Assembly: GCF_015207825.1 (NCBI RefSeq)
Contig: NZ_JADEWC010000012.1
Span: 1 to 64,000, forward strand
DNA from: Cyanobacterium stanieri LEGE 03274
GTDB taxonomy: Bacteria > Cyanobacteriota > Cyanobacteriia > Cyanobacteriales > Cyanobacteriaceae
Reading direction: 5' to 3'
DNA: 64,000 nucleotides
Within the stretch, counting starts at the first letter, position 1. Each line of letters opens with the position of its first letter. The notes under the pieces are model-generated. The model saw only the letters and a list, made by a program, of their open reading frames with translations. It was not told the DNA's origin and made no database searches. Both the position numbers and the translations under genes were made by a program. This document shows positions 20,034 to 39,951 of the stretch, in pieces.

Positions 20034-20171
20034 CTATTAAATAACATTTATTCCTTTTCAAGTAAGATGATTGATAATTAATTCGTTGGTGTTAAAACGA
20101 ACTTAATATGATCTTGATTAGACATCATCTTAGATTATTATTAATTATCCACTATCAAAGGTTTACTATGC

Positions 20172-20729: not shown

Positions 20730-20865
20730 AACTTTTATCTTAAAAATATTTTGTTTTATTTTCCCATGAAAACCCATGATTATGTATTGTAAAATCATAA
20801 AACCATGGATAGTTTGTGGCTTAATCCATAAAAATAGAGTTTTATTAAGGGTAATTGCTTCAATC

Positions 20866-20893
20866 TTGATAGGCTCAGTACAATTGAGATAAT
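20866..20893 (+). promoter_or_regulatory. Possible sigma70 promoter of the PilT gene
   Basis: TTGATA (20866-20871), a 16-base spacer, then GATAAT (20888-20893). The ATG is at 20913, so the leader would be only about a dozen bases carrying AAGGGTGAAAG. Moderate match. Confidence 0.4.
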
Positions 20894-20912
20894 TATCAAC
20901 CAAGGGTGAAAG

Positions 20913-22487: not shown

Positions 22488-22563
22488 TTTTACTCACCTT
22501 GATTGGTTGTAAGGCAAGGGTTTTAAACCCCTTGTCATAGGTTTTATATAAAAAAAATATGAT

Positions 22564-23796: not shown

Positions 23797-23918
23797 TTAG
23801 GGTCATCAAATGATTGGATGATGTTCAAAAATAAGGTTAATGGATAACTTTTAATCAATTCAACTAATACCATAAGCATTAAAATTGTTAAGGAGTAATC
23901 TATATAGAAATTTTTAGT

Positions 23919-24128
23919 ATGAATAACCTAGTTTTTTTTGCCGTCGCTGGAGATTTTCCCATCTATTTTGTGGCGGTTTATGTGGTGGGTTTAGTGGCCG
24001 CCGTTTCCATTGGTTTAATTGCTTGGTACAATTCTAAGCGTCCTGTGGGTTGGGAGGATGCCCAAAAACCTGATTTTATTCCCGATCTCAACAGCAATTC
24101 TCGATCCTCGGAAGAAGATCAAGATTAA
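23919..24128 (+). CDS. psb35: Small single-helix membrane protein, Psb35-like
   Basis: A 69-residue protein with one transmembrane helix (about residues 14-37, YFVAVYVVGLVAAVSIGLIA) followed by WYNSKRPVGWEDAQKPDFIPD and an acidic tail. From memory this matches the small cyanobacterial photosystem II assembly protein Psb35 (Ssl2148 type), associated with CP47 modules. I recognise the SKRPxGWE...PDFxP block but could not confirm it by search. A good AAGGAG lies 24 bases before the ATG, further than normal. It sits between sbcD and a 60-residue hypothetical gene. Confidence 0.6.
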   Translation: MNNLVFFAVAGDFPIYFVAVYVVGLVAAVSIGLIAWYNSKRPVGWEDAQKPDFIPDLNSNSRSSEEDQD

Positions 24129-24304
24129 CTCTTATTTTGGGTGATTAGGACATAGGAATATTGATAATTACGATTTAACTTTCAGGTTAAAATATTTTTC
24201 AATTGTTAACTATTCCCCATTCCCTATCTAAACCAAGACGCTTTTTGAGCAAACCCTACTTAGGTTAGTGATATATTGACAAAGGAATATATACGCACAA
24301 TATT

Positions 24305-24487
24305 ATGGATTCAACAACGATTAAAGAAAAAGTAAAGGCGATCGCCTCTAAGCGTGAAATGTTAGTTAAACTGTCGGAAAAACCAGATCTTGGTAATCTA
24401 AAACTAGATGTAACCCAAGCCCTCGATGAACTAGACGAACTCATCGAAGAATTACATCTGACTTTTCCCGAAACCGCTAAAAATTAG
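24305..24487 (+). CDS. Small conserved-looking hypothetical protein, 60 aa
   Basis: A short soluble protein (MDSTTIKEKVKAIASKREML...) predicted to be two helices with an acidic second helix (LDVTQALDELDELIEELHL). A HIP1 octamer lies inside the frame (codons for AIAS), as it does in neighbouring real genes, and codon use is normal. No motif is recognised. It is followed after 63 bases by an alpha/beta hydrolase gene on the same strand, so cotranscription is possible. Confidence 0.55.
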   Translation: MDSTTIKEKVKAIASKREMLVKLSEKPDLGNLKLDVTQALDELDELIEELHLTFPETAKN

Positions 24488-24550
24488 CAACAAAAAATAA
24501 CTAAACACATTTTATGGGAAAATAGGAAGGGAACATTAAAAAACCAGTCA

Positions 24551-25417
24551 ATGAGTAAAATCGAAATTGGTGGCATAGAACATTTTTATCAACTAACTTC
24601 CCCACCGAACCCAGATTCATCCCTTCCTACCCTCGTGTTTATCCATGGATGGCTTCTCAGTAATAAATATTGGCAACCGCTCATGGATAAATTAGGGGGA
24701 AAATACTCTTGCTTGGCCTATGATTTAAAAGGTTTTGGTCATTCCCAATCAAACCTAGATTATTATGATGGTTCTGCTTTTAGTCTCAAAAGTTATGCCC
24801 AGGATTTAAAAGAATTATTAACGGCTCTCAATATTCAAAAAGCCTGGTTAATTGGTCATTCCCTTGGTGGTAGTGTGGCGATTTGGGGCGCTGATGTGTG
24901 TGCCTCAGTGGTAGAAGGGGTTATCTGTGTCAACGCCGGGGGTGGTATCTATCTTAAAGAAGAATTTGAACAATTTCGAGGCGCTGGGGAAAAAATGGTT
25001 AAATTTCGTGCTCCATGGTTGGGTTATGTTCCCCTCTTAGATTTGGTTTTTGCTCGAATGATGGTCAAAAAACCCCTACCTAGAAAATGGGGAAAAGAAA
25101 GATTAAATGATTTTTTACAGGCCAAAGAACAAGCTGCGATCGCCTCTTTACTCGAATCCACCACCGAAGAACAAGTCCACTACCTACCGCAAATCGTGGC
25201 TCGTCTGGCTCAACCCTTACACTTTATCGCAGGAAAACAAGACAAAATCATGGAAACTAAATATGTCAAACACTTAGCCAGTTTTCATGAACTCTTTAAA
25301 AATCATCATGATAACGTTTGTGAAATTGATAATTGTGGACATTTTGCCATGTTAGAGCAAACCGATCTAGTCTATGAGCAAATTTTAACAATTGTTCAAA
25401 AATACGAACATAATTAA
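24551..25417 (+). CDS. Alpha/beta-fold hydrolase
   Basis: A 288-residue hydrolase. The oxyanion-hole segment FIHGWLLSN (about 29-37), the nucleophile elbow GHSLGGS (about 103-109), an acid in IAGKQDKIM (about 231-239) and the catalytic His in NCGHFAMLEQ (about 266-275) give a complete Ser-Asp-His triad. A lid-like insertion lies around 130-190. The substrate is not predictable; related cyanobacterial proteins act on esters or lipids. No signal peptide, so probably cytoplasmic. Confidence 0.85.
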   Translation: MSKIEIGGIEHFYQLTSPPNPDSSLPTLVFIHGWLLSNKYWQPLMDKLGGKYSCLAYDLKGFGHSQSNLDYYDGSAFSLKSYAQDLKELLTALNIQKAWLIGHSLGGSVAIWGADVCASVVEGVICVNAGGGIYLKEEFEQFRGAGEKMVKFRAPWLGYVPLLDLVFARMMVKKPLPRKWGKERLNDFLQAKEQAAIASLLESTTEEQVHYLPQIVARLAQPLHFIAGKQDKIMETKYVKHLASFHELFKNHHDNVCEIDNCGHFAMLEQTDLVYEQILTIVQKYEHN

Positions 25418-25790
25418 AATAAAGTGCTACCATAATGGCAGTCTTAATAATAATTAGATCTTAAGCCAGACTAAATAAATTTAGAATGATACAAGTAACG
25501 TTCTCTCCACTGCTAGGGCTTAAACCACTAAGCCTCATCAATGATTTTAAGTCCCAAGCTGTATTGAAACTTTGGTTATTTTTCTCTGACATAAAACATA
25601 TATTTAACAGAAAGTTAATTTATTAATATGTGGGAATAAAAGCCATGGGCTTCACTCCTACATACAGGGAAATTAGTTATAATATAATGTTTAACTAATA
25701 CTTTGTTTCCCCACATTTCCCCTCGGAAATTAACATTTACTTTTATCGTAAAAAACAAATTTGATCTTTAGGAATATTAAGGGAAAGTCT
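25418..25790. other. 373-bp intergenic region with short hairpins
   Basis: No reading frame is convincing. Visible are a small hairpin AAGCC-ATG-GGCTT around 25641-25653 and a GCTTAAACCACTAAGC inverted repeat around 25519-25534. These could belong to the 5' leader of the downstream gene or to an unannotated small RNA; nothing decides between them. Its last bases, AAGGGAAAG, precede the ATG at 25791. Confidence 0.3.
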
Positions 25791-26099
25791 ATGCTAGACC
25801 GCAAGATTTATCAAATGTACAAAGAAGGTTGTGATGTCTCTGTGTTCTTGCGGGATCAACAACGATGGATTGAAGATGCACAAATCATCGGTATTGAAGG
25901 AGATGTCGTAACTATTCGCTATGAAATGGATGAAGACTACGAAAATAGCTCTTGGGAGGAGTTTGTTCGTTTAGAAAGTATCGGTGCTGTGAGTCGTAAA
26001 CTAGCTTGTGTACCCCGTGGCAATACGGAAATCAATGTTTCTGAAGATTGTCCCGAAGCTGAACAAATTTATCCTCGTCGTCAAGATCAAGATAAATAA
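25791..26099 (+). CDS. Cyanobacterial conserved protein of unknown function (DUF6679-like)
   Basis: A 102-residue soluble protein starting MLDRKIYQMYKEGCDVSVFL. A TTG at 25761 would extend it by ten residues, but the ATG at 25791 is preceded by AAGGGAAAG and starts at the point where the conserved-looking block begins. The middle (WIEDAQIIGIEGDVVTIRYEMDEDYENSSWEEFVRLESIGAVSRKLA) looks like a small SH3/Sm-like beta-barrel of the kind that binds nucleic acid or protein. I believe this belongs to DUF6679, but that is from memory. The stop codon abuts a heptamer repeat and a strong terminator, so the unit ends here. Confidence 0.7.
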   Translation: MLDRKIYQMYKEGCDVSVFLRDQQRWIEDAQIIGIEGDVVTIRYEMDEDYENSSWEEFVRLESIGAVSRKLACVPRGNTEINVSEDCPEAEQIYPRRQDQDK

Positions 26100-26133
26100 T
26101 TGACAATTAATGATTAACCATTGAAAATTGAGG
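26099..26133. repeat. Heptamer repeat starting at a stop codon
   Basis: Units ATTGACA, ATTAATG, ATTAACC, ATTGAAA and ATTGAGG. The first base is the last base of the preceding gene's TAA. Confidence 0.7.
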
Positions 26134-26156
26134 GGGTTGATTTTTCAGCCCCTTTT
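26133..26156 (+). terminator. Rho-independent terminator
   Basis: GGGGTTGA (26133-26140), a TTTT loop, then TCAGCCCC (26145-26152): an 8-bp stem with one G-T pair, followed by TTTT. It is 34 bases after the DUF6679-like gene. Confidence 0.8.
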
Positions 26157-26179
26157 ATCGTTATTGGAATTTAGATTTA

Positions 26180-26809
26180 ATGTCATTAGAGAATTTTTTA
26201 GTCTGTGAAGGGGATTTACCCTTTGATGTTTTTGAACAATATAATCAAAGCGATGTATTGGCTATCGACACCGAAACCATGGGTTTAATTCCTCAGCGCG
26301 ATCGCCTTTGTTTGGTGCAATTGTGCGATCGCAAAGGTTTTGTAACCGCCATCCGCATCAAAAGAAATCAAACCGAAGCCCCCCATTTGGTAAAACTTTT
26401 AGAAGCCCCCCACATTACCAAAATATTTCACTTTGCCCGTTTTGACGTTGCCCAATTTTTATACACCTTTGGAGCAAAAACAGAACCCATATTCTGTACC
26501 AAAGTAGCCAGTAAAATGGCTCGTACTTATTCAGGTAGCCACGGCTTAAAAACCATTGTTCAAGAATTAGAAGGAGTAGAGTTAGACAAAAAAGCCCAAA
26601 GTTCGGATTGGGGTAACGTTGAAAGCCTTTCCCCTGAGCAGTTGAGCTATGCGGCCAATGATGTGCGTTATCTTATTCCCATGCGCGAAAAGTTAATCGC
26701 TATGTTACAACGGGAGGAGCGCTGGGAGTTAGCAAGAAGATGTATTGAAACGATTTCTTTGTTTGTGGAGTTAGATTTAAACTATTACAAAGATATTTTT
26801 GAGCATTAA
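26180..26809 (+). CDS. Ribonuclease D-type 3'-5' exonuclease
   Basis: A 209-residue DEDDy exonuclease domain protein. Exo I is AIDTETMGL (about residues 29-37), Exo II is IFHFARFDVAQ (about 84-94) and Exo III is YAANDVRYL (about 158-166) with the catalytic Tyr and Asp. The HRDC domain of enterobacterial RNase D is missing, which is usual for the short cyanobacterial form. Expected role: 3' processing of tRNA or other stable RNA. ATG at 26180, only 24 bases after the previous gene's terminator. Confidence 0.88.
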   Translation: MSLENFLVCEGDLPFDVFEQYNQSDVLAIDTETMGLIPQRDRLCLVQLCDRKGFVTAIRIKRNQTEAPHLVKLLEAPHITKIFHFARFDVAQFLYTFGAKTEPIFCTKVASKMARTYSGSHGLKTIVQELEGVELDKKAQSSDWGNVESLSPEQLSYAANDVRYLIPMREKLIAMLQREERWELARRCIETISLFVELDLNYYKDIFEH

Positions 26810-26907
26810 AAAAAATCCCCTCATTAATAGGGGGAATTATCTACAGTCATCATGCCATAATTAAGTAATGCCAATTAATTGAACGATAAACTGTTGGCCT
26901 TGTAATA

Positions 26908-27036
26908 TCAACTCCCCTTGATCACTTACAAATTAGTAATATCAGTATCTTAGTTCAATTAATTGAACGAACCATCGTTAGCCGTGTAATTTATTACACG
27001 GTGGGGTACGAAGATACAATCTATTGATAACGAATC
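26908..27036 (+). repeat. Dispersed double-palindrome element, full-length copy
   Basis: ATATCAACTCCCC... (from 26906), TTCAATTAATTGAA near 26954-26967, the linker CGAACCATCGTTAG, palindrome CCGTGTAATT/TATTACACGG at 26982-27001, then the tail GGGG..CGAAGATACAATCTATT. It occupies the RNase D to membrane-protein gap (26810-27099). A second, shorter TTAATTGAACGATAAACTGTTGGCCTTGTAAT piece precedes it at 26875. Confidence 0.75.
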
Positions 27037-27099
27037 ATCCGAACTTGATACAATTTATTGCAAGACGAGTAATGATATATTGTCTAAATCGGATAATGC

Positions 27100-27612
27100 C
27101 TAATTTTTGACGGGGCAGGTGTTGTTATAGCACCATCGCAAGAGATTACCCACTAATAGATATTTAATGGCTTCTAATACCCAATATCCTTCATGCCAAG
27201 AAATCATTTCATGGGGCATTTCTGTGGAGGCACTAAACTGATTAATAGATAAGCCCCAAGCACTCATATGGGGAATGAAAATGTAGGTATAGGCCAAAGC
27301 AATGAGCAGTAAAAGATTAGCAAATACTAAAAAGATGGTCTGTTTTTGTTCAGGAAATTGATGATTAAAATAAAATACTAATGACACGGTTAAAATTAGG
27401 GCTGCGCAGATTACTTCGATGCGATTAAAAACACCAAAAATTACAAACCCCACACTGGCAAAACCGCCGTCATTCATCATACCACTGACTGACATACTAG
27501 GAATTAAAATGAAGTCTAAAAAGAGACTACTACAAAACCAAAATCCTAGGGTGCAGAGAATAATGGCATTCCAATTCAAATCTTTATGGGCGATCCTAGA
27601 AACTATATTCAT
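27100..27612 (-). CDS. Four-helix membrane protein of unknown function
   Basis: A 170-residue integral membrane protein with hydrophobic segments at about residues 15-35, 50-80, 93-115 and 145-160. The loop between segments 3 and 4 (HMSAWGLSINQFSASTEMPHEMISWHEGYW) is polar with several histidines. The pattern recalls small DUF4149-like proteins, but I cannot assign a family with confidence. ATG at 27612. The gene is alone between convergent RNase D and codirectional rsmA, whose gene lies upstream. Confidence 0.7.
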   Translation of the reverse strand: MNIVSRIAHKDLNWNAIILCTLGFWFCSSLFLDFILIPSMSVSGMMNDGGFASVGFVIFGVFNRIEVICAALILTVSLVFYFNHQFPEQKQTIFLVFANLLLLIALAYTYIFIPHMSAWGLSINQFSASTEMPHEMISWHEGYWVLEAIKYLLVGNLLRWCYNNTCPVKN

Positions 27613-27804
27613 AATAATAATACCTATTTTTCTCTATATTTCTAGGATAACTTAACCCTTAAGCTATTTATATTAAGTATTTTAACTTTTTTTCTTAAGT
27701 TTAATTAAGCGATTACCTAGTTATTTTTACTTATTAATTTTTGAGAAATAAGAGCAAATAAATTTATGGTCAATGCCATAGATAAATTTTATGATCGTCC
27801 ACTT

Positions 27805-28635
27805 TTATTTTTCATTAATGATTGTTTCTAATTTATCACTGAGGAAAATCCAATCATTAACACTTAAATTTTCTGCCCTTACAAGGGGATTTAAATTCAA
27901 CTCTATCAATACTTTTTCCAAAATATTATTATCAATAATAGATTTTAAATTATTTTTTAACATCTTTCTTCTACTAGAAAATCCTAATTTTATAATGGTT
28001 TCTAAAAATTTAGGATTATTAGCTTCTTTTTCTAATTTTCTTGGGGTTATTTTGACAACTACAGAATCAACTTTAGGGCGAGGACGAAAATCTTTTGCGG
28101 GTACTTCACAAGCAATTTCACAGTTTGCTAAATATTGGACTTTTACGGATAATGCTCCATAAATTTTATTGTTTGGTGGGGCTACGAGGCGATCGCCCAC
28201 TTCTTTTTGAATGAGCAAAACAATGGATTCTAGGGGATTGGGATTAGGATTGGCAATAGTGCCTAGGAGTTTTTCAATGATTGGTCCTGTGATGTTATAG
28301 GGTATGTTAGCTACGACTTTATTATAATTTCTAAAGTCAGGAAAATTAGTTAATATAGAGGAAATATCTAAGTTTAAAAAGTCTCCTTCTAATAATAAAA
28401 AATTATCTTTTTCTCCATATTCTTTAACTAAAAGTTTGCATAAATCTCGATCAATTTCAATGGCCAATAATTTATCTACATAAGGCAACATTCTTTTGGT
28501 TAAGACCCCTGTACCTGGCCCTATTTCTAAGATGCGATCGCCCTTATTTAATTGAGCTGTACGAATTATATTATTTAAAGCGGTTTCACTTTTTAACCAA
28601 TGCTGTCCAAACTGTTTTTTTGCTCTAATAGCCAT
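27805..28635 (-). CDS. rsmA: 16S rRNA dimethyladenosine transferase
   Basis: A 276-residue SAM-dependent enzyme that dimethylates the two adjacent adenosines near the 3' end of 16S rRNA (KsgA). The N-terminal AKKQFGQHWL is the family start. ILEIGPGTGVLTKRML (about residues 35-50) binds SAM, and NIPYNITGPIIEKLL (about 108-122) carries the catalytic NxPY motif. The C-terminal helical domain has FSSRRKMLKNNLK. It diverges from the pabAB gene over a 375-bp spacer with no other gene. Confidence 0.95.
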   Translation of the reverse strand: MAIRAKKQFGQHWLKSETALNNIIRTAQLNKGDRILEIGPGTGVLTKRMLPYVDKLLAIEIDRDLCKLLVKEYGEKDNFLLLEGDFLNLDISSILTNFPDFRNYNKVVANIPYNITGPIIEKLLGTIANPNPNPLESIVLLIQKEVGDRLVAPPNNKIYGALSVKVQYLANCEIACEVPAKDFRPRPKVDSVVVKITPRKLEKEANNPKFLETIIKLGFSSRRKMLKNNLKSIIDNNILEKVLIELNLNPLVRAENLSVNDWIFLSDKLETIINEK

Positions 28636-29010
28636 ATAATAAAAAATATTTTTTTTTTACGAAGAATTAGGGTACACTTAAATCTATTTTAGGTTGTTAT
28701 TTATTACTTTTTTATTAATCACTACCTACTTAAAATAAATTTTTCACCTAATACATAATATCTATCAATGTCTATTCACCTTGTAATTCTTTTTACGGCG
28801 GATGATAATAGACTTTATCCGTTGAATTGAATATGGTTTTAACCCCATAGAGAAATTATAAAGCCTAAGGGGAAAAGAAGGAAAATGAAGCATCAAAATT
28901 GATCGATTAATTGTTGACTATTTAGCTGATGTATTTTTGTTATTCCATCGGGGGTGAAGACAGGTTACAATTTAAACGGAAAATTAAATTTAGTCTATCT
29001 GTTATATTTA
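28636..29010. other. 375-bp divergent spacer between rsmA and pabAB
   Basis: A/T-rich with no gene or recognised RNA. It must contain both promoters. An in-frame GTG at 28954 would extend PabAB by 19 residues that look like non-coding DNA. Confidence 0.4.
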
Positions 29011-31065
29011 ATGAGAAGTTTAATAATTGATAATTTCGATTCTTTTACCCATAATATATATCAATTATTAGCCCAAGTTAATCAGGAATCTCCTACCGTC
29101 ATTACTAATAATCAATGGTCATGGGAACAAATTCAGGCAGAAAACTTTGATAATATTATTATTTCTCCAGGTCCTGGCAATCCTTCTAAAAAAAGTGATT
29201 TTGGTGTATGTGGAGAAGTTTTAGTTAAGGCAAATATTCCTATCCTCGGAATTTGTTTAGGGCATCAAGGATTGGGTTATTTTTATGGTTCAAAAATAGT
29301 TAATGCTCCTATTCCTATGCACGGGAGAATTAGCAAAATTTATCACAATAATGATCTTCTTTTTCAGAATATTCCTTCTGGTTTTGAAGTGGTTCGTTAT
29401 CATTCTTTAATGATAGATGATTTAGGAGAAGATATAGAGGCGATCGCCCATACTGATGATAATATAATTATGGCAATTAGACACAAAATCAGACCTTTTT
29501 GGGGGGTTCAATTTCATCCCGAATCCATCTGTTCTCAACATGGATTTGAGTTATTAAATAATTTTAAAAAGATAACTAAATTTAATTATAATTATTCAAC
29601 AAAAAAAAAATTTAAACAGTTAGTTAATTATTATAAAAAAGTAAAAGTAAACAATAATAAATACCAAGTTTACTCTTGTTTAATAAAAGGTTGGAGAGAG
29701 CCAGAATTAATTTTTAAACAATTTTATAACAAATCTACTAACAGTTTTTGGTTAGATAGTAGTATGGTGGCTGAGGGTTTATCTCGCTTTTCTTTTATGG
29801 GAGATACTAATAATGATGATAGTTTTACCATCCAATATACCGTCGATGATAATAAGGTATATACACAAAATAATCAAGGAGAAATAACAACATTAAATAA
29901 TATAGATTTTTATGGATATTTAAATGATATAATAGCAAAATATGCTTGTGAGGATGATCGTTTACCTTTTAATCTTTGTGGTGGTTTAATAGGTTATTTT
30001 GGTTATGAACTAAAACAACTATCAGGATATAATAATAAACATAAATCACCATTACCCGATTGTTATTTAATTAAAGGCGATCGCCTCTTAGCATTTGACC
30101 ATAAAGAAAAAAAAATTTATTTAATATATATAGGCACAAAAGAAGCCGAAAAAAAAGCTCAAGAATGGTTTAAAAATATAGAAAACAAAATTAGTCAAAT
30201 ATCCGTAAAAAATCAAGCAAAATCGCAAAATAATAAAATAACAAAAGAAAAATTAAACCTTACCAGAAATCAACAACAATACCTCCATAACATAGACACT
30301 TGTTTTCAAAAAATTAAACAAGGAGAAAGCTACGAAATCTGTTTAACCAATCAAATAAACTTACCCCCCATCGAAAACCCCCTAGAATACTACTGTCAAC
30401 TAAGAAAACAAAACCCAACCCCCTATAGCGCCTTCATCAAATTCCATGACATAACCATAATTTGCTCATCTCCCGAACGTTTTTTACACCTTGATAAACA
30501 AGGGTGGCTAGAATCAAAACCCATCAAAGGCACAGTTAGAAGAGGAATAAACCCCCAAGAAGACACCCAACTACTGCAACAATTAAGCCTTAGCGAAAAA
30601 GAAAAAGCCGAAAACCTAATGATTGTTGACTTATTACGTAATGATTTAGGTAAAATTTGTCAAATAGGTAGTATTCATGTACCAAAATTAATGGCGATCG
30701 AAAGTTATAGCACCGTCCATCAAATGGTATCTACCGTCAGAGGTAAACTAAAACAAGACATTACCCCCCTAGACTGTCTTAAGTATATATTCCCTGGAGG
30801 TTCAATGACAGGGGCTCCAAAAAAACGTACCCTTGAAATTATCGATGAATTAGAAACCGAAGCCAGAGGAATCTATTCAGGTAGTATTGGTTTCTTGAGC
30901 TTTAATGGTACTCTTGATCTTAATATTGTCATTCGTACGGCCATTGTTACCAAAAATAAAACCACCATCGGTGTAGGAGGTGCAATTACGGCGCTTTCTG
31001 ATAAAAATCAAGAATTTGAAGAAATCATCCTCAAAGCCCAAGCCCTTTTAACCGCCCTCCAATAA
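29011..31065 (+). CDS. pabB: Fused aminodeoxychorismate synthase (PabA-PabB)
   Basis: A 684-residue bifunctional enzyme of folate synthesis. Residues 1-190 are a class I glutamine amidotransferase: MRSLIIDNFDSFTHNIYQ, GICLGHQGLGYF (catalytic Cys) and VQFHPESICSQHGFELL (catalytic His and Glu). A charged linker leads to the chorismate-binding half (about 220-684) with SPERFLHL, KPIKGTVRRG, ENLMIVDLLRNDLGKIC and the PGGSMTGAPKKRTLEIIDELE motif. It makes 4-amino-4-deoxychorismate; no PabC lyase domain is attached. The ATG at 29011 is chosen because the amidotransferase fold starts there. folP is the next pathway enzyme in the same window. Confidence 0.92.
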   Translation: MRSLIIDNFDSFTHNIYQLLAQVNQESPTVITNNQWSWEQIQAENFDNIIISPGPGNPSKKSDFGVCGEVLVKANIPILGICLGHQGLGYFYGSKIVNAPIPMHGRISKIYHNNDLLFQNIPSGFEVVRYHSLMIDDLGEDIEAIAHTDDNIIMAIRHKIRPFWGVQFHPESICSQHGFELLNNFKKITKFNYNYSTKKKFKQLVNYYKKVKVNNNKYQVYSCLIKGWREPELIFKQFYNKSTNSFWLDSSMVAEGLSRFSFMGDTNNDDSFTIQYTVDDNKVYTQNNQGEITTLNNIDFYGYLNDIIAKYACEDDRLPFNLCGGLIGYFGYELKQLSGYNNKHKSPLPDCYLIKGDRLLAFDHKEKKIYLIYIGTKEAEKKAQEWFKNIENKISQISVKNQAKSQNNKITKEKLNLTRNQQQYLHNIDTCFQKIKQGESYEICLTNQINLPPIENPLEYYCQLRKQNPTPYSAFIKFHDITIICSSPERFLHLDKQGWLESKPIKGTVRRGINPQEDTQLLQQLSLSEKEKAENLMIVDLLRNDLGKICQIGSIHVPKLMAIESYSTVHQMVSTVRGKLKQDITPLDCLKYIFPGGSMTGAPKKRTLEIIDELETEARGIYSGSIGFLSFNGTLDLNIVIRTAIVTKNKTTIGVGGAITALSDKNQEFEEIILKAQALLTALQ

Positions 31066-31070
31066 AAAAC

Positions 31071-33836
31071 TTAGATTTTGAGATACTTCGCCAAATGAGA
31101 CTTTTTCGATGTGGCAATATCTTCGGGAGTGCCAATGGCCACCAATTCTCCCCCCTTGTTTCCCCCTTCCAAACCTAAATCGATAATCCAATCAGCACAC
31201 CTTATCACATCCAAATTATGCTCAATGACAATGATAGAGTTGCCTTTATCTGCCAATTTTTGTAATACATTTAAGAGATGATGCACATCATAAAAAGATA
31301 ATCCCGTGGTAGGTTCATCAATTAAATATACTGTTTTTCCTGTGGCACGGCGAGATAATTCCGTAGCAAGTTTTACCCGTTGGGCTTCCCCCCCCGACAA
31401 GGTGGGCGCCGATTGCCCTAGTTTGACATAGGTTAAACCCACATCCACAAGGGTTTGTAAACGATTGACAGCACGAGGGATATTTTCAAACACCTTCAAG
31501 GCTTCTTCTACCGTCATATCCAATACATCGGCGATGGAATAATCCTTATATTTCACCTGTAAAGTTTCTCGGTTATACCTTGCCCCCTTACATATATCAC
31601 ATTGTACATATACATCGGGTAAGAAGTTCATGGAAATGACATTTACCCCTTGCCCTCCACAGGCTTCGCACCTTCCCCCCTTGACATTAAAGGAAAATCT
31701 ACCTGGTTTATAACCCCTTGCTTTGGCTTCAGTGGTTTGGGCAAACATATCTCTAATGACGTCAAATACCCCTGTATAGGTGGCAGGATTAGAACGGGGA
31801 GTGCGTCCGATGGGAGATTGATCGATTACAATGACTTTATCTACCGCTTCTATGCCTTCTAGGCTATCTAATTCTTTGGGAAAAGGTACATTGCGATTAA
31901 GGTGGTGTTTGAGGGAGGGATATAGTAATTCGTTGATGAGGGTGGATTTTCCTGAGCCTGAAACCCCTGTGATACAGACAAATTTTCCGAGGGGGATTTC
32001 TACATCAATGTTTTTGAGGTTGTTACGGTGACAGTTTTTGAGGGTTAAAAAGTTGCCGTTTCCTTCCCTTCTGGTGTCGGGGGTGACAATTTTTTTTCTG
32101 CCTGATAAATAGGCACTGGTAAGGGATGCTTTGGATTTGAGGAAGTTTTTATAATCTCCTTGATAAACGATTTCCCCTCCATGGACTCCTGCTTTTGGCC
32201 CAATGTCAACAATATAATCGGCGCTCTTGATTGTGTCTTCGTCATGTTCTACAATAATCAAAGTATTGTCGAGATCTCGTAATTTTTTGAGGGTTTCTAA
32301 GAGGCGATCGTTATCCCGTTGATGTAAACCGATGCTAGGTTCGTCTAATACATATAATACCCCTGTAAGTCCCGAACCGATTTGGGTAGCGAGGCGAATC
32401 CGTTGGGCTTCTCCCCCTGAGAGGGTCATGGCGGTACGATCTAGGGTAAGATAGTCTAAGCCGACGTCGAGTAAAAATTTTAGTCGGGCTTTGATTTCTT
32501 TGAGGGCTAATTCTCCGATTTGGGCTTGTTTGGGGGTAAGTTGAATATCATTGACTCTGGTTAAGCATTCACCGATGGAAACGCTGGTTAAGTCGTTGAT
32601 GGTGTATTGTCCTAGTTTGACGGCGAGCGCCTCGGGTTTTAATCTTTTACCGTGACAGACTTCGCAGGTTTGATGTTCGATGTATTGTTCTAGTTTTTGT
32701 TTAATTACTTCGGAGTTACTTTCTTGGTAGGTTTTTTCGAGCATGGGGATTACTCCTCGATAGTAACCGTATTGGATTTGTTGAATTTCTTTGTCTCCGT
32801 AGAAAATTATCTGTTGTTGTTTTTCAGTGAGAGTATGCCATTTGTCGCTTAGTTTGAAGCCGTATTCTTCGGCAACATATTCGAGGAGGGAGACATAATA
32901 GGGGTTTTCCTTGTCTGCCCAAGGGGCGATCGCCTTTAGAACTATGGCATCGGGATCTGGTACAATCAAATGGGGTGAAAAGGTTTTGAGAGTACCCAAA
33001 CCATGACAATGGCCACAAGCACCATAGGGGGAGTTGAAAGAAAATAAACGGGGGGACAATTCTTCCATCACCGCGCCATGGGTTGGACAAGCGAAATTTT
33101 CCGAGAAAATGATGGTTTCTTCCTCTTTACCCACCATCTCCACCATGGCAACACCATCGGCAATTTTTAAACAAGTACCTAAAGAATCGGCTAATCTTTC
33201 TTGAATGTTTGCCTTGACTACGAGGCGATCGACTAATACACTTATATCATGTTTTTTCTGGGGTTTTAGCTCGATATTATCCCCTAACTCCCGAATTTCC
33301 CCATTAATTTTTACCCTTACAAATCCCTGAGAGCTTAAACTAGAAAGTAATTGATGATGATTTCCTTTTTTTCCTCTGACTACTGGGGCAAGTAAATGTA
33401 GTTTAGTTTTTTCAGGTAAAGCCATCACCCTGTCACACATTTCGTCAATGGTTTGGGGGGCGATAGATTGACCACATATTGGACAATGGGGTTCCCCTGC
33501 CCTACCATAGAGTAACCTAAGATAATCATAGATTTCCGTAACCGTGCCTACCGTTGAGCGAGGATTATGGGATGTGGATTTTTGATCGATAGAAATGGCG
33601 GGGGATAACCCTTCGATGCTATCTACATCAGGTTTATCCAGTTGCCCTAAAAACTGTCTGGCATAGGCACTCAATGACTCTACATAACGCCGTTGCCCTT
33701 CTGCGAAAATAGTATCAAAAGCAAGGGAAGATTTTCCGCTACCCGATACCCCTGTAAAGACTATTAATTGATTGCGGGGTAATTCTAAATCAATATTTTT
33801 GAGGTTGTGTTGCCTAGCGCCACGAATACGAATCAT
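31071..33836 (-). CDS. uvrA: Excinuclease ABC subunit A
   Basis: A 921-residue damage-recognition ATPase of nucleotide excision repair. Two ABC modules are visible: Walker [13 protein letters not shown] (about residues 29-40) and [12 protein letters not shown] (about 627), with signatures [14 protein letters not shown] and [14 protein letters not shown]. Zinc-binding cysteine clusters are at [27 protein letters not shown] and [28 protein letters not shown] is the typical segment after the second module. It is slightly shorter than the usual 940-970 residues but no domain is missing. It converges with pabAB, with only 5 bases between stops. Confidence 0.96.
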
Positions 33837-33884
33837 TTAGTTAATAAGAAATGGGAAATGTGTAATATAGGGAACAGGCAGTAA

Positions 33885-33916
33885 AATAATTGTCAACTGT
33901 CAATTGTTAATTATCT
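33885..33916. repeat. Heptamer repeat upstream of uvrA
   Basis: 7-bp-period sequence TAATTGTCAACTGTCAATTGTTAATTATCTATT in the 275-bp spacer (33837-34111) between uvrA and the divergent CorC/HlyC gene. Nothing else is recognised there. Confidence 0.55.
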
Positions 33917-34111
33917 ATTATTTAGGGACTTAGAAAACCCAAGCCCCTAGCGGTTGATTGTTGATTTAAATCTATGATACCGTATAACGCAAAACACCAG
34001 AATAATTAATTATCTACCAAACCTTCATCAAGATATACTATCTTAACTCGAGAAAACTTTATCCCCATAAAATAACTTTAAACCCTATTTTTTTTACCCA
34101 TCCCTAACTAA

Positions 34112-35503
34112 ATGAGTTTGCCTGATATTGGATTTAGATTACTAGCTATTTTTTCTCTGATTGCCATTAACGCTTTTTTTGTTACGGGAGAATTTGCTAT
34201 AGTTTCTGTGAGGCGATCGCGCATTAATCATCTAGTATTAGAAGGAGATATACCCTCCCAAACTGTCCAATCTTTACAAAAAAGTTTAGATAGACTTCTT
34301 TCTACCACCCAACTAGGTATCACCCTTTCTAGTCTTGCCCTGGGTTGGATAGGGGAAAGCACCATGGCACAAATCCTACAATCATGGATTATTGCCCTCT
34401 CTCTCCCCGCCAACATTAATCAAATTTTGATTCATTCTGTTTCCATTCCCCTTTCTTTTATTCTTCTGGTTTACCTACAAATCGTATTGGGGGAATTATG
34501 CCCAAAATCTTTCTCCCTATTGTATGCTGAAAATTTAGCTCGATTCCTCGCCCCTCCCATTCGAGTCATTGGCATTATTTTTAAACCTTTTATCGATATT
34601 CTCAACCAATCTACTAAATTTATACTCCGTTTATTTGGGGCTGAATACACTGGGCAAGGGTGGTATAAACAAGTTACCCCCGAAGAATTACAACTTATCA
34701 TTCGTACGGAAAAAGAGTCATCTGGTTTAGAAGCCGAAGAAAGGGAATTATTAAGTAATGTCTTTGAGTTTGGGGATGTGGAAGCCATGGAAATCATGAC
34801 ACCCCGAGTAAATATTGATTATTTATCCCTTGATTCTACCTATCAAGATTTAATTGAAGAAGTGGCGAAAACAGGCCATTCCCGTTATCCTGTCATTGGT
34901 GAATCTCTCGATGACATTCGAGGTATTATTAATCTTAAAGATAGTGTTTCTTTTTTAGGCAAACATGAAGACTTAGAAAATAATCAAAATCCTCCTTTAT
35001 CGGAAAATAAATTATCACAATCGATTAAGGATTTAATTCGCCCTGTTAAATTTTTATCGGAATTTACCCCCCTCAGTGAGTTACTTAATGTGATGCAACA
35101 ATCACGGCTAAAAATGGTAATTATTGTGGATGAGTATGGAGGCACTGCGGGATTAGTTTCTATGCAAAATCTGATTAATGAAATTTTAGGTCATGAGGAA
35201 AAAAGTATCACTAATCAGGAGTCGGAAGTTACGGTAATTGATGAACAAAATTTCTTGGTTTGGGCTCAAATTAATCTTGAGGAGTTAAACGATTTACTCG
35301 ATTTTAATTTACCTCTGACGGAGGAATATACTACCCTTGGGGGATTTTTAATTTATCAGTGGCAAAAAATTCCTTCTAGGGGGGAAAAATATGTTTTTGA
35401 TAATCTTGTTTTCACCATTGCTGATATGGATGGCCCTCGCATTCATAAGATTAAGGTTACTATTCAAGATTCTACGGGGGAAATGGTTGATAATCAAGGT
35501 TAA
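34112..35503 (+). CDS. CorC/HlyC-type membrane protein (DUF21-CBS-CorC_HlyC)
   Basis: A 463-residue protein. The N-terminal DUF21 domain has about four hydrophobic segments (residues 8-25, 65-85, 100-125, 140-165) and the motif GEFAIVSVRRSRINHL. Next is ELLSNVFEFGDVEAMEIMTPRV, which leads into two CBS motifs (about 220-350, HSRYPVIGESLDDIRGII and RLKMVIIVDEYGGTAGLVS). The C-terminal CorC_HlyC domain has YTTLGGFLIYQWQKIPSRGE. Families with this layout take part in magnesium/cobalt or other cation handling; the old name 'hemolysin' is misleading. Monocistronic. Confidence 0.9.
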   Translation: MSLPDIGFRLLAIFSLIAINAFFVTGEFAIVSVRRSRINHLVLEGDIPSQTVQSLQKSLDRLLSTTQLGITLSSLALGWIGESTMAQILQSWIIALSLPANINQILIHSVSIPLSFILLVYLQIVLGELCPKSFSLLYAENLARFLAPPIRVIGIIFKPFIDILNQSTKFILRLFGAEYTGQGWYKQVTPEELQLIIRTEKESSGLEAEERELLSNVFEFGDVEAMEIMTPRVNIDYLSLDSTYQDLIEEVAKTGHSRYPVIGESLDDIRGIINLKDSVSFLGKHEDLENNQNPPLSENKLSQSIKDLIRPVKFLSEFTPLSELLNVMQQSRLKMVIIVDEYGGTAGLVSMQNLINEILGHEEKSITNQESEVTVIDEQNFLVWAQINLEELNDLLDFNLPLTEEYTTLGGFLIYQWQKIPSRGEKYVFDNLVFTIADMDGPRIHKIKVTIQDSTGEMVDNQG

Positions 35504-35561
35504 TTAACAACATCTGAACGTTATTTTATTATGGAATGAAATATAGCTGAAGTATTAAAAT

Positions 35562-35587
35562 AACCTCAGTTCGGAATTTGTCAATAT
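35562..35587 (+). repeat. 26-bp direct repeat flanking the phytase-like gene (left copy)
   Basis: The sequence around AACCTCAGTTCGGAATTTGT (ending CAATAT) recurs at 36806-36831 with 24 of 26 bases identical. The two copies bracket the gene at 35657-36802. Confidence 0.65.
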
Positions 35588-35656
35588 GGTAAGTAAGTAC
35601 GTCCGCACATGTTGCTTTTTATCGTACCCTCGGTATAACAAAAATTGAGATAAAAT

Positions 35657-36802
35657 ATGTTAAATAAAATTTCTAAAATTATTACTCTATTAATCATAAT
35701 ATGTAGTTTATTTTTTATAGATATTAACCCAGTTTTTGCCCAAGAAAGACTATTTTTAGATTTATCTTTAGAATATTTAGACACCTATGAATTAAAAATT
35801 CAAGATTATGAAAATACAAAAGTTGGTGGATTTTCTGGTATTACTTATAATCAACAGAAAGATTATTTTTATGTGATTTCAGATGATCGCTCTCGTCTTG
35901 CTCCTGCTCGTTTTTATACGGTAAAAATTAACATAGAAAATGATAAAATAGATGATGTTATCCTTGAAAATGTTACTTTTTTAAAAGATAATAACGGGGA
36001 ATTATATGCTAATGATACCATAGACCCTGAGGCGATCGCCCTTAGCCCCAGAAATAGTATTTTCATCTCTAGCGAAGGCATTAGTCATCTAAGAGTTGCC
36101 CCTTTTATTAATGAATATGACTTAGATGGAAATTTACTTTCTGAAGTACCGATTCCCAAAAGATATATTTACAATAAGGAAGAAAAAAAAGGCATCCAAG
36201 ATAACTACGGCTTTGAATCTTTAACCATTAAAGCTAATGCTACCATGGCTCAAGATCCTTTTAGACTATTTACAGGCAGTGAATTAGCACTCACCCAAGA
36301 TTTTAATGATAAAATTCCCGAAACCTTATTACGTAGTCGAATGATGCACTATGTAGTTAATCCTTTTGGGCAACCTGTGTTAATTTCTGAAAATTTATAC
36401 CCTGTTAATCAAGCAGATTTTGGGGTAATTTATAATGGTTTAAATGAATTATACGCCCTCCCAGAAGAAGGTTATTTATTATCTTTAGAAAGAACTTTTG
36501 GTTTAAGGGGTTTTGGAGCAAAAATATTTCAAATAGTGATGGCAAATGCTACAGATATTTATGCAGAAAAAAGTTTGGCAGGAAATATTGATAATATTAA
36601 TTTGATTAAGAAAAAATTGCTCTTAAACTTGAAAGATTTAAATATAGATTTTGATAACTTAGAGGGCTTAACTTTTGGGCCTAGATTGCCTGATGGTAGT
36701 CAAAGTTTAATTTTAGTTAGCGACAACAACTTTAAATACTCCACCGAAAAAACTCAATTTTTATTATTTAAAATTGTAAAAAATACTCAAGGTAACAATT
36801 AA
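35657..36802 (+). CDS. Secreted 'esterase-like activity of phytase' family protein
   Basis: A 381-residue exported protein. Residues 1-28 form a Sec signal (MLNKISKIITLLIIIC... ending VFAQ). The mature part fits the phytase-like esterase family (a beta-propeller). Visible are GGFSGITYNQQKDYFYVISDD near residue 56-76, IDPEAIALSPRNSIFISSEG, NYGFESLTI, LYALPEEGYLLSLERTF and NLEGLTFGPRLPDGSQSLILVSDNN near the C-terminus. It probably acts in the periplasm on phosphate or ester substrates, but the natural substrate is unknown. It is bracketed by 26-bp direct repeats. Confidence 0.82.
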   Translation: MLNKISKIITLLIIICSLFFIDINPVFAQERLFLDLSLEYLDTYELKIQDYENTKVGGFSGITYNQQKDYFYVISDDRSRLAPARFYTVKINIENDKIDDVILENVTFLKDNNGELYANDTIDPEAIALSPRNSIFISSEGISHLRVAPFINEYDLDGNLLSEVPIPKRYIYNKEEKKGIQDNYGFESLTIKANATMAQDPFRLFTGSELALTQDFNDKIPETLLRSRMMHYVVNPFGQPVLISENLYPVNQADFGVIYNGLNELYALPEEGYLLSLERTFGLRGFGAKIFQIVMANATDIYAEKSLAGNIDNINLIKKKLLLNLKDLNIDFDNLEGLTFGPRLPDGSQSLILVSDNNFKYSTEKTQFLLFKIVKNTQGNN

Positions 36803-36805
36803 TTT

Positions 36806-37003
36806 AACCTGAGTTCGGAATTTGTTAATATTGTTGGGTTTCAGGTGACAGATATTAAGGAGATAGGGGGATGAGGGGTGTAGGAGATAAGGAGTAGAGG
36901 AGTATGGGTGATAATAGTTTATACTAAACCCGTAAATCAAAATATACCTTAGTTCAATTTATTGAACGATAAACCGTTAGCCTTGTAATTTTGCAAGACG
37001 AGG
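36806..37003 (+). repeat. Right flanking repeat plus a degenerate double-palindrome copy
   Basis: The 26-bp repeat (36806-36831) is followed, in the 300-bp gap to cinA, by a short GGAGATAGGGGGATGAGGGG stretch. A degenerate element copy is at 36949-37003 (TTAGTTCAATTTATTGAACG, then CCTTGTAATTTTGCAAGACG). No gene in the gap. Confidence 0.6.
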
Positions 37004-37102: not shown

Positions 37103-38341
37103 ATGAGTGCAGAAATTATTTGTATTGGTACAGAAATTTTACTGGGAGATATTCTTAACAGTAATGCTCAATATTTAGCCCAAGAATTAGCAAAACTGGG
37201 TATTCCCCATTATTATCAAACCGTAGTGGGTGATAATTTAAACCGTATTCATCATGTTATTAAAACAGCCCTAGAAAGGTCATCGATTTTAATTTTTACA
37301 GGGGGTTTAGGCCCTACCCCAGATGATTTGACAACCGAGGCGATCGCCTCTTATTTTCAGACTAAAATGATCGAAGATGGGGAAATTATCGAAGATATAA
37401 AAATAAAATTTGCCCACAGGGGCAGAGAAATGACACCCAACAATCGTAAACAAGCCCTTATTCCCCAAGGGGCGTTAGTGTTACCCAACAAAACAGGCAC
37501 AGCACCAGGAATGATGTGGGAAAAAGAAGATAAAATTATTTTAACCTTCCCGGGTGTACCCTCAGAAATGAAACAGATGTGGCAAGATACCGCCGTGCCT
37601 TTTCTCAAAACCAAAGGTTGGGGGCAGGAAATTATCTATAGTCAAATGATGCGTTTTCGGGGCATTGGAGAATCTTCCCTAGCCCAAAAAGTCAACCACT
37701 TGTTTGATTTAACTAACCCCACCGTTGCCCCCTACGCTTCCCATGGGGAGGTAAAATTAAGGGTATCCACCAAAGCAAAAAACCCTGAGGAAGCAAGAAA
37801 AATAATTCAACCTATCACCGAGGAAATCAAAGCCATTGCAGGGCAAGATTATTTTGGCAGTGATAGCGATACCTTAGCTTCTGTGGTGGGTAATATCTTA
37901 AAACAAAAAGGAGAAACCATTTCCGTTGCCGAGTCTTGCACAGGGGGCGGTTTAGGGGCTATGTTAACCGACATTGAGGGCAGTTCGGAATATTTCATGG
38001 GGGGGATCATTGCCTACAGTAACGAGGTAAAAATGAAGCTCCTAGGGGTGTCTGAGGACGATTTAAATAAGGAAGGGGCAGTAAGTGCCATGGTGGCAGA
38101 GCAAATGGCGATCGGAGTTCGGGAAAAGTTAGGCACGGATTGGGGTATTGGTATTACAGGCATTGCAGGGCCTGGGGGTGGCACGGAGTCTAAGCCCGTG
38201 GGTTTGGTTTATATCGGTATTGCTTCGGCTAAAGGAGAAGTATTTAGTTATGGTGATACTTATGGTAGTAATCGGGGCAGATATTTAGTACGTTATTTAT
38301 CGGCTTGTAATGCCCTTGATAAGTTAAGGAGAATGCTTTAA
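37103..38341 (+). CDS. cinA: CinA-like protein (MoCF domain plus nicotinamide-nucleotide amidase)
   Basis: A 412-residue two-domain protein. The N-terminal MoCF/MoaB-like domain (1-170) has AEIICIGTEILLGDILNSN, FTGGLGPTPDDLTTEAI and FPGVPSEMKQMW. The C-terminal CinA domain (about 255-412) has ISVAESCTGGGLGAMLTDIEGSS and GIGITGIAGPGGGTESKPVGLVYIG, the pyridine-nucleotide amidase active site. It is thought to recycle NMN or act in ADP-ribose hydrolysis. Its stop codon TAA (38339-38341) overlaps TTA, the reverse-strand stop of a truncated copy of the ABC-exporter gene end (see 38338-38439). Confidence 0.93.
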   Translation: MSAEIICIGTEILLGDILNSNAQYLAQELAKLGIPHYYQTVVGDNLNRIHHVIKTALERSSILIFTGGLGPTPDDLTTEAIASYFQTKMIEDGEIIEDIKIKFAHRGREMTPNNRKQALIPQGALVLPNKTGTAPGMMWEKEDKIILTFPGVPSEMKQMWQDTAVPFLKTKGWGQEIIYSQMMRFRGIGESSLAQKVNHLFDLTNPTVAPYASHGEVKLRVSTKAKNPEEARKIIQPITEEIKAIAGQDYFGSDSDTLASVVGNILKQKGETISVAESCTGGGLGAMLTDIEGSSEYFMGGIIAYSNEVKMKLLGVSEDDLNKEGAVSAMVAEQMAIGVREKLGTDWGIGITGIAGPGGGTESKPVGLVYIGIASAKGEVFSYGDTYGSNRGRYLVRYLSACNALDKLRRML

Positions 38342-38439
38342 TGGGCTATACCCACAGAGTCAAGATACATATCAATGGCGGTGGTGGTATCTCCATCAAA
38401 GGCAACAGTACCGTTTTTTAGCCATATGGTGCGATCGCA
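38338..38439 (-). pseudogene. 102-bp duplicate of the 3' end of the exporter ATPase gene
   Basis: Bases 38338-38439 match 39208-39309 at 100 of 102 positions (differences at 38389 and 38421), offset 870 bp. In the intact gene this segment encodes the last 33 residues plus stop of the ABC ATPase. Identity stops at GCGATCGCA: the base after it differs, so the junction lies one base past a HIP1 octamer. The left end is the TTAA where cinA and the remnant stop overlap. Confidence 0.9.
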
Positions 38440-38507
38440 TCTTATTTTGAGATTAAACAGAAATTATTGAAGATACAATAAAAAAAAGGTTGAAAGGAGT
38501 GGTTAAT

Positions 38508-39146
38508 ATGTTTCTCCAAGAAAAAGTCAGTGATGATTTGAAACCAGAAGAAAAGTTAATAAGTTTAGAAGAGTTTCTTAACTGGTATCCTGATGGTTTT
38601 TATGGTCGATTTGAGTTACGTAATGGAGTTATTGTTAAAATGCAACCCACCGGCACCCATGAGCAAGTAGCTGGTTTTATAGCCTCAAAATTATCCGTCT
38701 ATATCGAACGTTTTAGTTTGCCCTTGTTTATTCCCCGACAAGGATTAATTAAAGCCATAGATACCGATAAATCTGCTTATATTCCAGACGTGATGGTATT
38801 AGACAACGATTGTGTCAAAAATGATGAACCCATGTGGAAAAAACGCTCGACCATTACTCAGGGAAAAACTGTTAAATTAGCCATAGAAGTTGTTAGCACC
38901 AATTGGCAAGATGATTATTTAACGAAGTTAGGGGAGTATGAAAAATTAGGAATTGAGGAATATTGGATTATTGATTATTTGGGTTTGGGGGGAAGGCGTT
39001 ACATTGGCAATCCAAAGCAACCAACTATTTCTATTTGTCACTTGGTAGAAGATGAATACACTATGGAGTCATTTAAAAATCAAGATGTTATCAAATCTCA
39101 GTTGTTTCCTGAACTTAATTTAACCGCTGAAAAATTTTCGAGGTAG
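38508..39146 (+). CDS. Uma2-family PD-(D/E)XK-type protein
   Basis: A 212-residue protein of the Uma2 family (restriction-endonuclease-like fold), which is highly expanded in cyanobacteria and has no firm biological role. The visible core is ISLEEFLNWYPDGFYGRFELRNGVIV (with a conserved Glu), then IPDVMVLDND with the catalytic-type Asp, and VKLAIEVVSTNWQDDYLTKLGEYEKLGIEEYWIIDYLG with the ExV..S and KLxEYxxxGIxEYW signature. All expected active-site residues are present. The ATG at 38508 has AAAGGAG 8 bases upstream, so the upstream TTG at 38490 is rejected. It lies in the 768-bp segment between the two 102-bp copies. Confidence 0.88.
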   Translation: MFLQEKVSDDLKPEEKLISLEEFLNWYPDGFYGRFELRNGVIVKMQPTGTHEQVAGFIASKLSVYIERFSLPLFIPRQGLIKAIDTDKSAYIPDVMVLDNDCVKNDEPMWKKRSTITQGKTVKLAIEVVSTNWQDDYLTKLGEYEKLGIEEYWIIDYLGLGGRRYIGNPKQPTISICHLVEDEYTMESFKNQDVIKSQLFPELNLTAEKFSR

Positions 39147-39207
39147 GGCAATAATATCTTTTATGGTTTTAAGACATTAAGTATTACAAATTAGGTGTTA
39201 GGTAACA

Positions 39208-39309
39208 TTAATGGGCTATACCCACAGAGTCAAGATACATATCAATGGCGGTGGTGGTGTCTCCATCAAAGGCAACAGTACCGTTTTTTAACCATATGGT
39301 GCGATCGCA
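39208..39309 (-). repeat. Right copy of the 102-bp direct repeat (in-frame gene end)
   Basis: This is the copy that supplies the working 3' end of the ATPase gene; see 38338-38439 for the remnant. A HIP1 octamer sits at 39301-39308. Confidence 0.9.
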
Positions 39310-39951
39310 CAGATCCTTTACAGACTCCAAACTGTGGGATACAAATAAAATGGTACTACTTTTTTCCCACAGAGATTCAATTCTTTGATGGGATTTTTGA
39401 GAAAATCTAGCATCTCCCACCGATAACACCTCATCCAAAATTAATATATCAGGTTGCACATCCGTTGCGATCGCAAAACCCAACCTCGCCATCATCCCCG
39501 ATGACAAACCCTTAACAGGAATATGAGCATAATCCATTAATTCTGCAAAATCAAGAATTTCAGGGGTTCGAACCTTCATTTCCTGACGAGAATAACCCAA
39601 CAACACCCCATAAAGAATAATATTATCCTGCACCGTCATATCAGGATTAAAACCCGCCCCTAACTCAATCAAAGGAGCAATATTCCCCCTAACCCTCACC
39701 GTGCCTTGGGTGGGCGGTAAAATTCCACAAATAACCTTCAATAAAGTTGACTTTCCCGCACCATTAGAGCCAATAATGCCTATTTTCTGCCCCGACTTGA
39801 TAGTTAAATCAATATTGTTTAAAACCCTTTTCTTGCTTGGTTTCGTATATTTACCCTGTAAAAAAGAAAAAATAGTCTTCTTTAAATCATAATTAAATTC
39901 CTCTTGGGTTCTTCTCCACAACTCTACATTATCTAATCTAATAATTTCCAT
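39208..39951 (-). CDS. ABC exporter ATPase, polysaccharide/teichoic-acid type (Wzt/TagH-like)
   Basis: A 247-residue nucleotide-binding subunit. Walker A GSNGAGKSTLLK lies near residues 59-70, the signature KGLSSGMMARLGFAIA near 144-159, and Walker B DILILDEVLSVGD near 167-179. The family-typical GSNGAGKSTLLKVICGI and IELGAGFNPDMTVQDN place it with exporters of O-antigen, capsule or teichoic acid. It lacks the C-terminal carbohydrate-binding domain of long Wzt proteins. It follows the permease gene by 33 bases on the same strand. Its final 33 codons are duplicated on the far side of the Uma2 gene. Confidence 0.9.
   Translation of the reverse strand: MEIIRLDNVELWRRTQEEFNYDLKKTIFSFLQGKYTKPSKKRVLNNIDLTIKSGQKIGIIGSNGAGKSTLLKVICGILPPTQGTVRVRGNIAPLIELGAGFNPDMTVQDNIILYGVLLGYSRQEMKVRTPEILDFAELMDYAHIPVKGLSSGMMARLGFAIATDVQPDILILDEVLSVGDARFSQKSHQRIESLWEKSSTILFVSHSLESVKDLCDRTIWLKNGTVAFDGDTTTAIDMYLDSVGIAH

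Follow-up and report, generated by a model that had tools for sequence, protein, structure and literature searches.

A copied gene end joined at a HIP1 octamer, probably a duplication scar, beside a horizontally mobile Uma2 gene in Cyanobacterium stanieri

Architecture of the locus

The window analysed here is a stretch of 64,000 nucleotides (G000:C12:1-64000) of the genome of Cyanobacterium stanieri LEGE 03274, a 3.19-Mb draft in 67 contigs referred to below as G000. It contains an intact cinA gene (37103-38341, forward strand, stop codon at 38339-38341), recognized as an open reading frame with CinA, MoCF_biosynth and CinA_KH domains and with PRK00549 and cinA_nterm above cut-off. The gene facing it is an intact ABC exporter ATPase gene (39208-39951, reverse strand), Wzt/TagH-like by similarity at scores below the NCBIfam cut-offs. 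The 3' end of the ATPase gene is present twice. The right copy (39208-39309, reverse strand) is the end in its place, as given by the reading frame and the repeat alignment, and an extra, left copy (38338-38439) lies against cinA at a spacing of 870 bp, identified by the repeat alignment and by a decayed orthologous copy in a related genome, G004. A first-pass annotation made from the letters alone had described this repeat, and its description is borne out: the copies are identical at 100 of 102 positions, far beyond chance (BLAST E 1.24e-48); the 768 bp between them hold a single Uma2 gene, whose frame (38490-39146) is the sole one of at least 80 amino acids on either strand; the left copy begins with TTA within the CTTTAA of cinA, giving a TTAA overlap; and both copies end one base beyond a HIP1 octamer, GCGATCGC (38431-38438 and 39301-39308). 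HIP1 occurs 45 times in the 64-kb window, and no second copy of the 972-bp segment that spans the repeat was found in G000.

The Uma2 gene (38508-39146, forward strand) has an ATG at 38508 with AAAGGAG ahead of it, in a frame open from a TTG at 38490. Its product passes the curated cut-off of the Uma2 profile PF05685 (103.4 bits against a cut-off of 27, E 1.3e-29, profile positions 1-171 of 172); among solved structures it shows a weak match to one chain, 9y1l_A (E 0.0014), and PADLOC places it under the candidate group PDC-S03. No match to the protein was found in 50,697 phage records. The family (PF05685, DUF820, COG4636) is described, in the available passages of one source, as having a PD-(D/E)XK fold and as a predicted endonuclease and likely solo toxin (PMC2701414). 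Around the gene, an approximate unit (38479-39161, forward strand) can be delimited that is absent in G004 and common to genomes G001 (BLAST limits 38473-39190) and G011 (38483-39155). The right flank of this unit (39162-39207) is in part common to G004 (AAGTATTA..GTTAGGTAACA) and possibly contains remnants of the downstream tail of a Uma2 gene.

Uma2 being the only frame of at least 80 amino acids between the copies, no integrase, recombinase or transposase frame is present in the unit, and its ends show no convincing inverted match. No short target-site duplication was seen by eye against G004 or G001, the limits being known to about 10 bp. With regard to a cognate site of the homing-endonuclease type, the G001 gene lies at a different site, and the G004 site has lost the gene or never had it.

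A junction inside HIP1

From the HIP1 octamer at 38431, the left copy runs into a degenerate copy, about 55 bp long, of the interior of cinA (38431-38486, forward strand). This fragment, a fact beyond the earlier annotation, is a copy of 37340-37408 with a 13-bp gap; it starts from the HIP1 octamer of cinA (37340-37347), which is the donor-side join point, and it is also found in G004. When the octamer is left out, none of 2000 Markov shuffles scores as high as the fragment against the 83 bp that follow HIP1 in cinA, and none of 500 does so against all of cinA. Because homology switches to the cinA interior at HIP1, beyond what shuffled sequences give, the left copy and the cinA fragment are one chimera joined inside the octamer. 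The junction lies within HIP1 of both parent sequences, the octamers at 37340, 38431 and 39301 all reading GCGATCGC. The order of the parts, from ATPase end through HIP1 to cinA interior, fits a duplication or template switch made locally at HIP1, and is not what the target duplication of an element would be expected to give.

A deletion at smtB in Synechococcus is reportedly bordered by HIP1. The octamer has been linked to site-specific and to illegitimate recombination (review PMC4390886, citing Akiyama 1998 and Robinson et al.), and according to the available passages of the same review no evidence ties it to homologous recombination. The window locus offers a concrete chromosomal junction formed inside this repeat.

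The locus in related genomes

Comparison genomes of the same genus were G001, G002, G003 and G004. Although cinA is present in 58 of 60 relatives and ABC ATPases in all 60, the two genes are neighbours in G004 only, as judged by eye from the best places (draft contig ends may hide other cases, and the true orthologue of the ATPase may be absent from some genomes); in G003 both are on one contig, 0.63 Mb from each other. The annotation had named an empty site, with the genes tail to tail and a single copy of the ATPase end, as what would support insertion. No such clean site was found, and the only relative with adjacent genes has a decayed junction without Uma2. In G004, cinA is followed by 53 bp with the decayed left copy (last 26 bp matching at 92%), the HIP1 junction, the cinA fragment with its 13-bp gap at the same place as in G000, a spacer and the ATPase gene. 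Over about 62 bp across the junction, G000 and G004 differ at two positions. The junction is common to both genomes and is therefore older than their split. That it results from an assembly error is extremely improbable: the draft comprises 67 contigs, but both copies lie inside one 92-kb contig and the junction is independently present in G004, which is assembled in three contigs.

At seven sites the right copy of G000 differs from G004 and G003, which agree with each other, and the left copy has the G000 state at six of these seven. Since the junction is older than the split, the shared states point to gene conversion in G000.

The G004 genome has seven Uma2 genes, none of them at the cinA-ATPase site. 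Its spacer contains a repeat with TATAGTTA..TAACTATA ends, which is also present elsewhere in G004 and is here split by another repeat that ends in ACCAAATCCT..AGGATTTGGT and is likewise found elsewhere. The two nested repeats are MITE-like, multi-copy in G004 and together 199 bp long (L003:2827-3025); without them, 64 bp of spacer are left before the ATPase stop. A motif in this spacer, ACAATTTGARAYATTTAMAGYGGAGA, was found with up to three mismatches at two places in the six genomes searched (G000, G001, G002, G003, G004 and G011), namely the G004 spacer and G001, and a backward control pattern had no match in the same six. The G001 match is situated about 85 bp beyond the Uma2 stop and 50 bp beyond the end of DNA homology with the window. 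The motif in the G004 spacer is thus probably the tail of a lost Uma2 unit, and G004 probably lost its Uma2 gene here. A Uma2 tail in G004 weakens the case for a duplication that preceded Uma2, and both may date to the common ancestor. Only two genomes carry the locus, and both the route and the order of duplication and Uma2 arrival are therefore judged from one comparison.

A MITE-like repeat with TATAGTTA ends was also seen at the start codon of another Uma2 gene (L186, L293; G000:C4, about 156022-156117). The G003 site without the repeat (L168) reads straight into the ATG, and insertion at TA kept the ATG of that gene.

Mobility of the Uma2 gene

The DNA of the G001 Uma2 gene is 94.6% identical to that of the window over 719 bp (window 38473-39190), and homology ends close outside the gene. 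Among the listed matches of at least 200 bp to window positions 20000-37000, identity is 67-81% for G001, and 79-88% with one match at 68% for G004. In G001 the gene occupies another site, downstream of a reading-frame end that looks like gltB by eye and upstream of an NhaD-like transporter gene, also named by eye, which follows a different gene in G000 and G004; in G003, homology to the G001 Uma2 locus likewise ends upstream of the transporter. The contig concerned is apparently record PXEJ01000392.1, from a metagenome bin. Compared with the G001 gene, the window gene is out of frame near its end and stops 8 bases earlier; a TAA of the G001 type would be at 39152-39154. Because the identity of 94.6% at another site stands against 67-81% in the core, Uma2 moves as a nearly bare gene, and the G000/G001 pair represents one clear case of horizontal mobility between species. 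None of the listed titles or abstract openings in the PubMed Central literature for Uma2/DUF820 deals with Uma2 mobility.

The G001 copy also bears on the limits of the moving unit. Its match covers 38473-39190 only and includes no ATPase end in the roughly 170 bp of upstream sequence, where the contig begins; an upstream repeat farther out would lie beyond the covered DNA. The idea that the 102-bp repeat forms the boundary of a Uma2 element is not supported, as the G001 copy shows no ATPase end in this flank and HIP1 fuses the left copy to the cinA interior.

Uma2 genes are multi-copy in these genomes, with PF05685 matches numbering 34 in G002, 18 in G003, 9 in G000 and 7 in G004; G001, which is incomplete, has 2. 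A related Nostoc gene (87% DNA identity over 652 bp) is found in two positions and orientations near recQ. On a Nostoc plasmid (L419:4213-9948), the methylase and hsdR genes of a type I restriction system have a Uma2 gene between them, in the opposite direction and 12 bp from the hsdR stop, and on an Anabaena plasmid (L424:4270-8476) another lies between dnaX and dnaN, again in the opposite direction.

Copied neighbour ends at Uma2 and other genes

Loci were collected in three steps (144, 60 and 34, that is 238), and 16 superseded ones were dropped; the 222 used contain 277 distinct Uma2 proteins and 1069 other mechanically called frames of at least 300 bp. A directed scan looked for the facing end of a neighbour recurring, on the same strand, beyond a gene of 400-1300 bp (E <=1e-4). 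Pairs of neighbouring Uma2 genes and low-complexity hits were excluded from all counts, and tandem arrays of Uma2 and DUF29 genes were removed after visual inspection; L218 (low complexity by eye) and L246 (a tandem cobW paralogue by its look) are still counted among the other hits. Since each locus was selected for its Uma2 gene, the controls are neighbours of Uma2.

At this threshold the 3' end of a convergent neighbour was copied at 7 of 92 Uma2 genes against 2 of 165 other genes (p 0.012). The remaining classes together gave no Uma2 hit in 314: the downstream neighbour's 5' end (0/113 against 3/338), the upstream neighbour's 3' end (0/146 against 6/345) and the upstream neighbour's 5' end (0/55 against 1/158). 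Over all classes, the counts are 7/406 and 12/1006 (p 0.45). The seven convergent Uma2 rows are the window, one locus of G007 (L093) and a single recQ site represented by five Nostoc species. When each lineage is counted once, the convergent class falls to 3/88 against 2/165 (p 0.35), and without the window to 2/87 against 2/165 (p 0.61). At E 0.01, Uma2 hits appear outside the convergent class as well (12/314): the counts are 9/92 against 9/165 for the convergent 3' end, 9/113 against 10/338 for the downstream 5' end (p 0.03), 2/146 against 14/345 for the upstream 3' end, 1/55 against 2/158 for the upstream 5' end and 21/406 against 35/1006 overall (p 0.17). The annotation had called for a search of other Uma2 genes for flanking repeats of a neighbouring gene end: the geometry recurs in two other lineages, and the excess at Uma2 over neighbour genes is not significant per lineage.

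In the Nostoc loci (L106, L108, L109, L123 and L124), a gene named by eye recQ ends in KWRRENRK-stop, and 27-34 bp of this end recur upstream of the convergent Uma2 gene; genomes G063 and G064 have no copy of the recQ end within 1.5 kb of recQ. In G007, 120 bp of a glycosyltransferase-like gene end recur at 86% identity upstream of a convergent Uma2 gene, possibly as the remnant of a tandem paralogue. At another Uma2 gene of G000 (L189), a 29-bp terminator stretch after psbA, a gene named by eye, recurs after the Uma2 stop at 27 of 29 positions (0 of 1000 shuffles); this case was found by eye, its flank is too short for the scans, and it enters no count.

The same signature attends unrelated genes. 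In G011, a signal peptidase gene (PF10502; lepB) lies between copies of a mutS-like 3' end (231 bp, 98.3%; L249:432-1989), and a glycosyltransferase gene (PF00535) between copies of an aminotransferase-like 3' end (240 bp, 95%; L259:5334-6810), both ends being named by eye. In G012, psbA and a 51-bp copy of its last codons (84%) enclose a DUF29 gene, and a Uma2 gene follows (L325:3192-3907), an end-restoring pattern in another expanded solo family; a DUF29 gene (PF01724) beside another gene likewise shows a copied end (L103). DUF29-like genes in the loci number only 16, too small a base for judging their share.

Several candidates were set aside: in Moorena (L117/L118) the copied end of an antitoxin gene brackets both that gene and Uma2, in a different geometry; the 137-bp repeat of L103 has three copies there; the repeats of L251 look dispersed; and that of L115 is intergenic. 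A break of homology at the Uma2 stop was also considered as a Uma2-specific trait. Of the gene-alignment pairs in the window's genus, 34 of 50 at Uma2 break within 5 bp of the stop, compared with 0 of 36 at other genes; these pairs are not independent and collapse to 12/17 breaks against 0/5. In a second genus the collapsed counts are 18/29 and 10/26 (p 0.11), and such breaks would also follow if neutral sequence were lost as far as the stop, so the trait was not taken as Uma2-specific. Convergent spacers of at most 50 bp are mildly more frequent at Uma2 (44/110 against 38/142, p 0.03).

Origin of the arrangement

We consider it somewhat probable (roughly 0.58) that the locus is a HIP1-joined duplication scar that hosts a horizontally mobile Uma2 gene, with Uma2 as passenger and not as cause. 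In a common ancestor of G000 and G004, the ATPase 3' end up to its HIP1 would have been joined to cinA from the HIP1 of that gene, 1-2 kb away on the same strand. The join itself is apparent in the alignments; as for the route, the two HIP1 octamers may have taken part in an unequal exchange, after which most of the surplus cinA copy was lost, or the template may have been switched serially, at TTAA and then at HIP1. Either would leave both genes whole and a spare ATPase end beside cinA. The redundant spacer holds a Uma2 gene that travels almost bare, at about 0.7 kb, between related cyanobacteria and that most likely arrived before the two genomes split. Later, gene conversion in G000 would have kept the two 102-bp copies alike, and G004 would have lost Uma2 and gained two nested MITE-like repeats while its spare copy decayed.

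Some observations count against this duplication. No remnant of a duplicated cinA 3' end is found left of the right copy, as a full unequal exchange would first give. That the copies are nearly identical has to be put down to gene conversion here, whereas a recent one-step insertion explains it without, and if G004 did lose Uma2, a single event may have brought both the gene and the junction.

An additive, one-sided integration is an unlikely alternative. An imported piece with Uma2 and a homologous ATPase end would have recombined on one side and been joined by HIP1 microhomology on the other, by homology-facilitated illegitimate recombination or by single crossover of a circle, as a general entry route of accessory genes at gene ends in which selection keeps the restored ends. 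It would account for gene restoration and the HIP1 join together, and for the same pattern at lepB, glycosyltransferase and DUF29 genes; yet no donor locus was found, and a cinA-like fragment in the import would make sense only if these genes were neighbours in the donor too.

We regard as slightly less probable still that Uma2 itself was inserted in an end-restoring manner, duplicating 102 bp and restoring the ATPase gene, with predicted cutting at or near HIP1 by Uma2 or a host system, and likewise at recQ in Nostoc and in G007. The recurrence of the geometry in three independent lineages, the confinement of Uma2 hits to the convergent class at the stricter threshold, the psbA terminator stretch on both sides of another G000 gene and the probable loss of Uma2 from G004 speak for it. 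However, a copy fused to cinA interior is not expected in a Uma2 element, the G001 unit shows neither repeat nor cinA fragment, transposase or integrase frames and convincing terminal inverted repeats are missing from the unit, the excess fades once lineages are counted singly or all classes pooled, and at the looser threshold Uma2 hits also fall in the other classes. What stands of the annotation's proposal that Uma2 entered at the ATPase end is the Uma2 segment between an intact end and its copy, HIP1 at the junction and nearly bare movement; the repeat as element boundary is not supported. A duplication joined at HIP1, with a mobile Uma2 in the redundant spacer, fits the junction better than such an insertion. 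The neighbour-end copies at recQ and in G007 give a hint of a link with Uma2. More speculative yet, and doubtful, is the generalization that Uma2, perhaps with DUF29, forms bare single-gene cassettes in cyanobacteria that enter at the 3' ends of genes, rebuild those ends and leave one copy behind, with a break that the Uma2 nuclease fold would make or favour and that in the window would lie at or near HIP1.

Flanking repeats at a Uma2 gene are, on their own, no evidence of movement driven by Uma2. Copied gene ends beside Uma2 and DUF29 genes make the spread of these large families testable among closely related strains.

Comparison with known systems

Integrative elements restore the 3' ends of genes (tRNA, tmRNA and protein-gene ends) on insertion. 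The window resembles them in its intact gene end with a copy on the far side of the insert, and differs in that the unit has no integrase frame, the repeats are not the limits of the G001 unit and a host cinA fragment lies inside. Homology-facilitated illegitimate recombination would leave one gene end restored and a joint at microhomology, both of which the window displays, with no donor locus found. As to the Uma2 family, the window gene is a member by profile, solo and multi-copy in these genomes; the available passages of PMC2701414 do not include movement as a bare gene, which is seen here for one genome pair. With HIP1-associated recombination, as presented in the available passages of PMC4390886, the locus shares a join within an octamer found in both parent sequences, while the present case is a chromosomal duplication between two genes, known by sequence alone.
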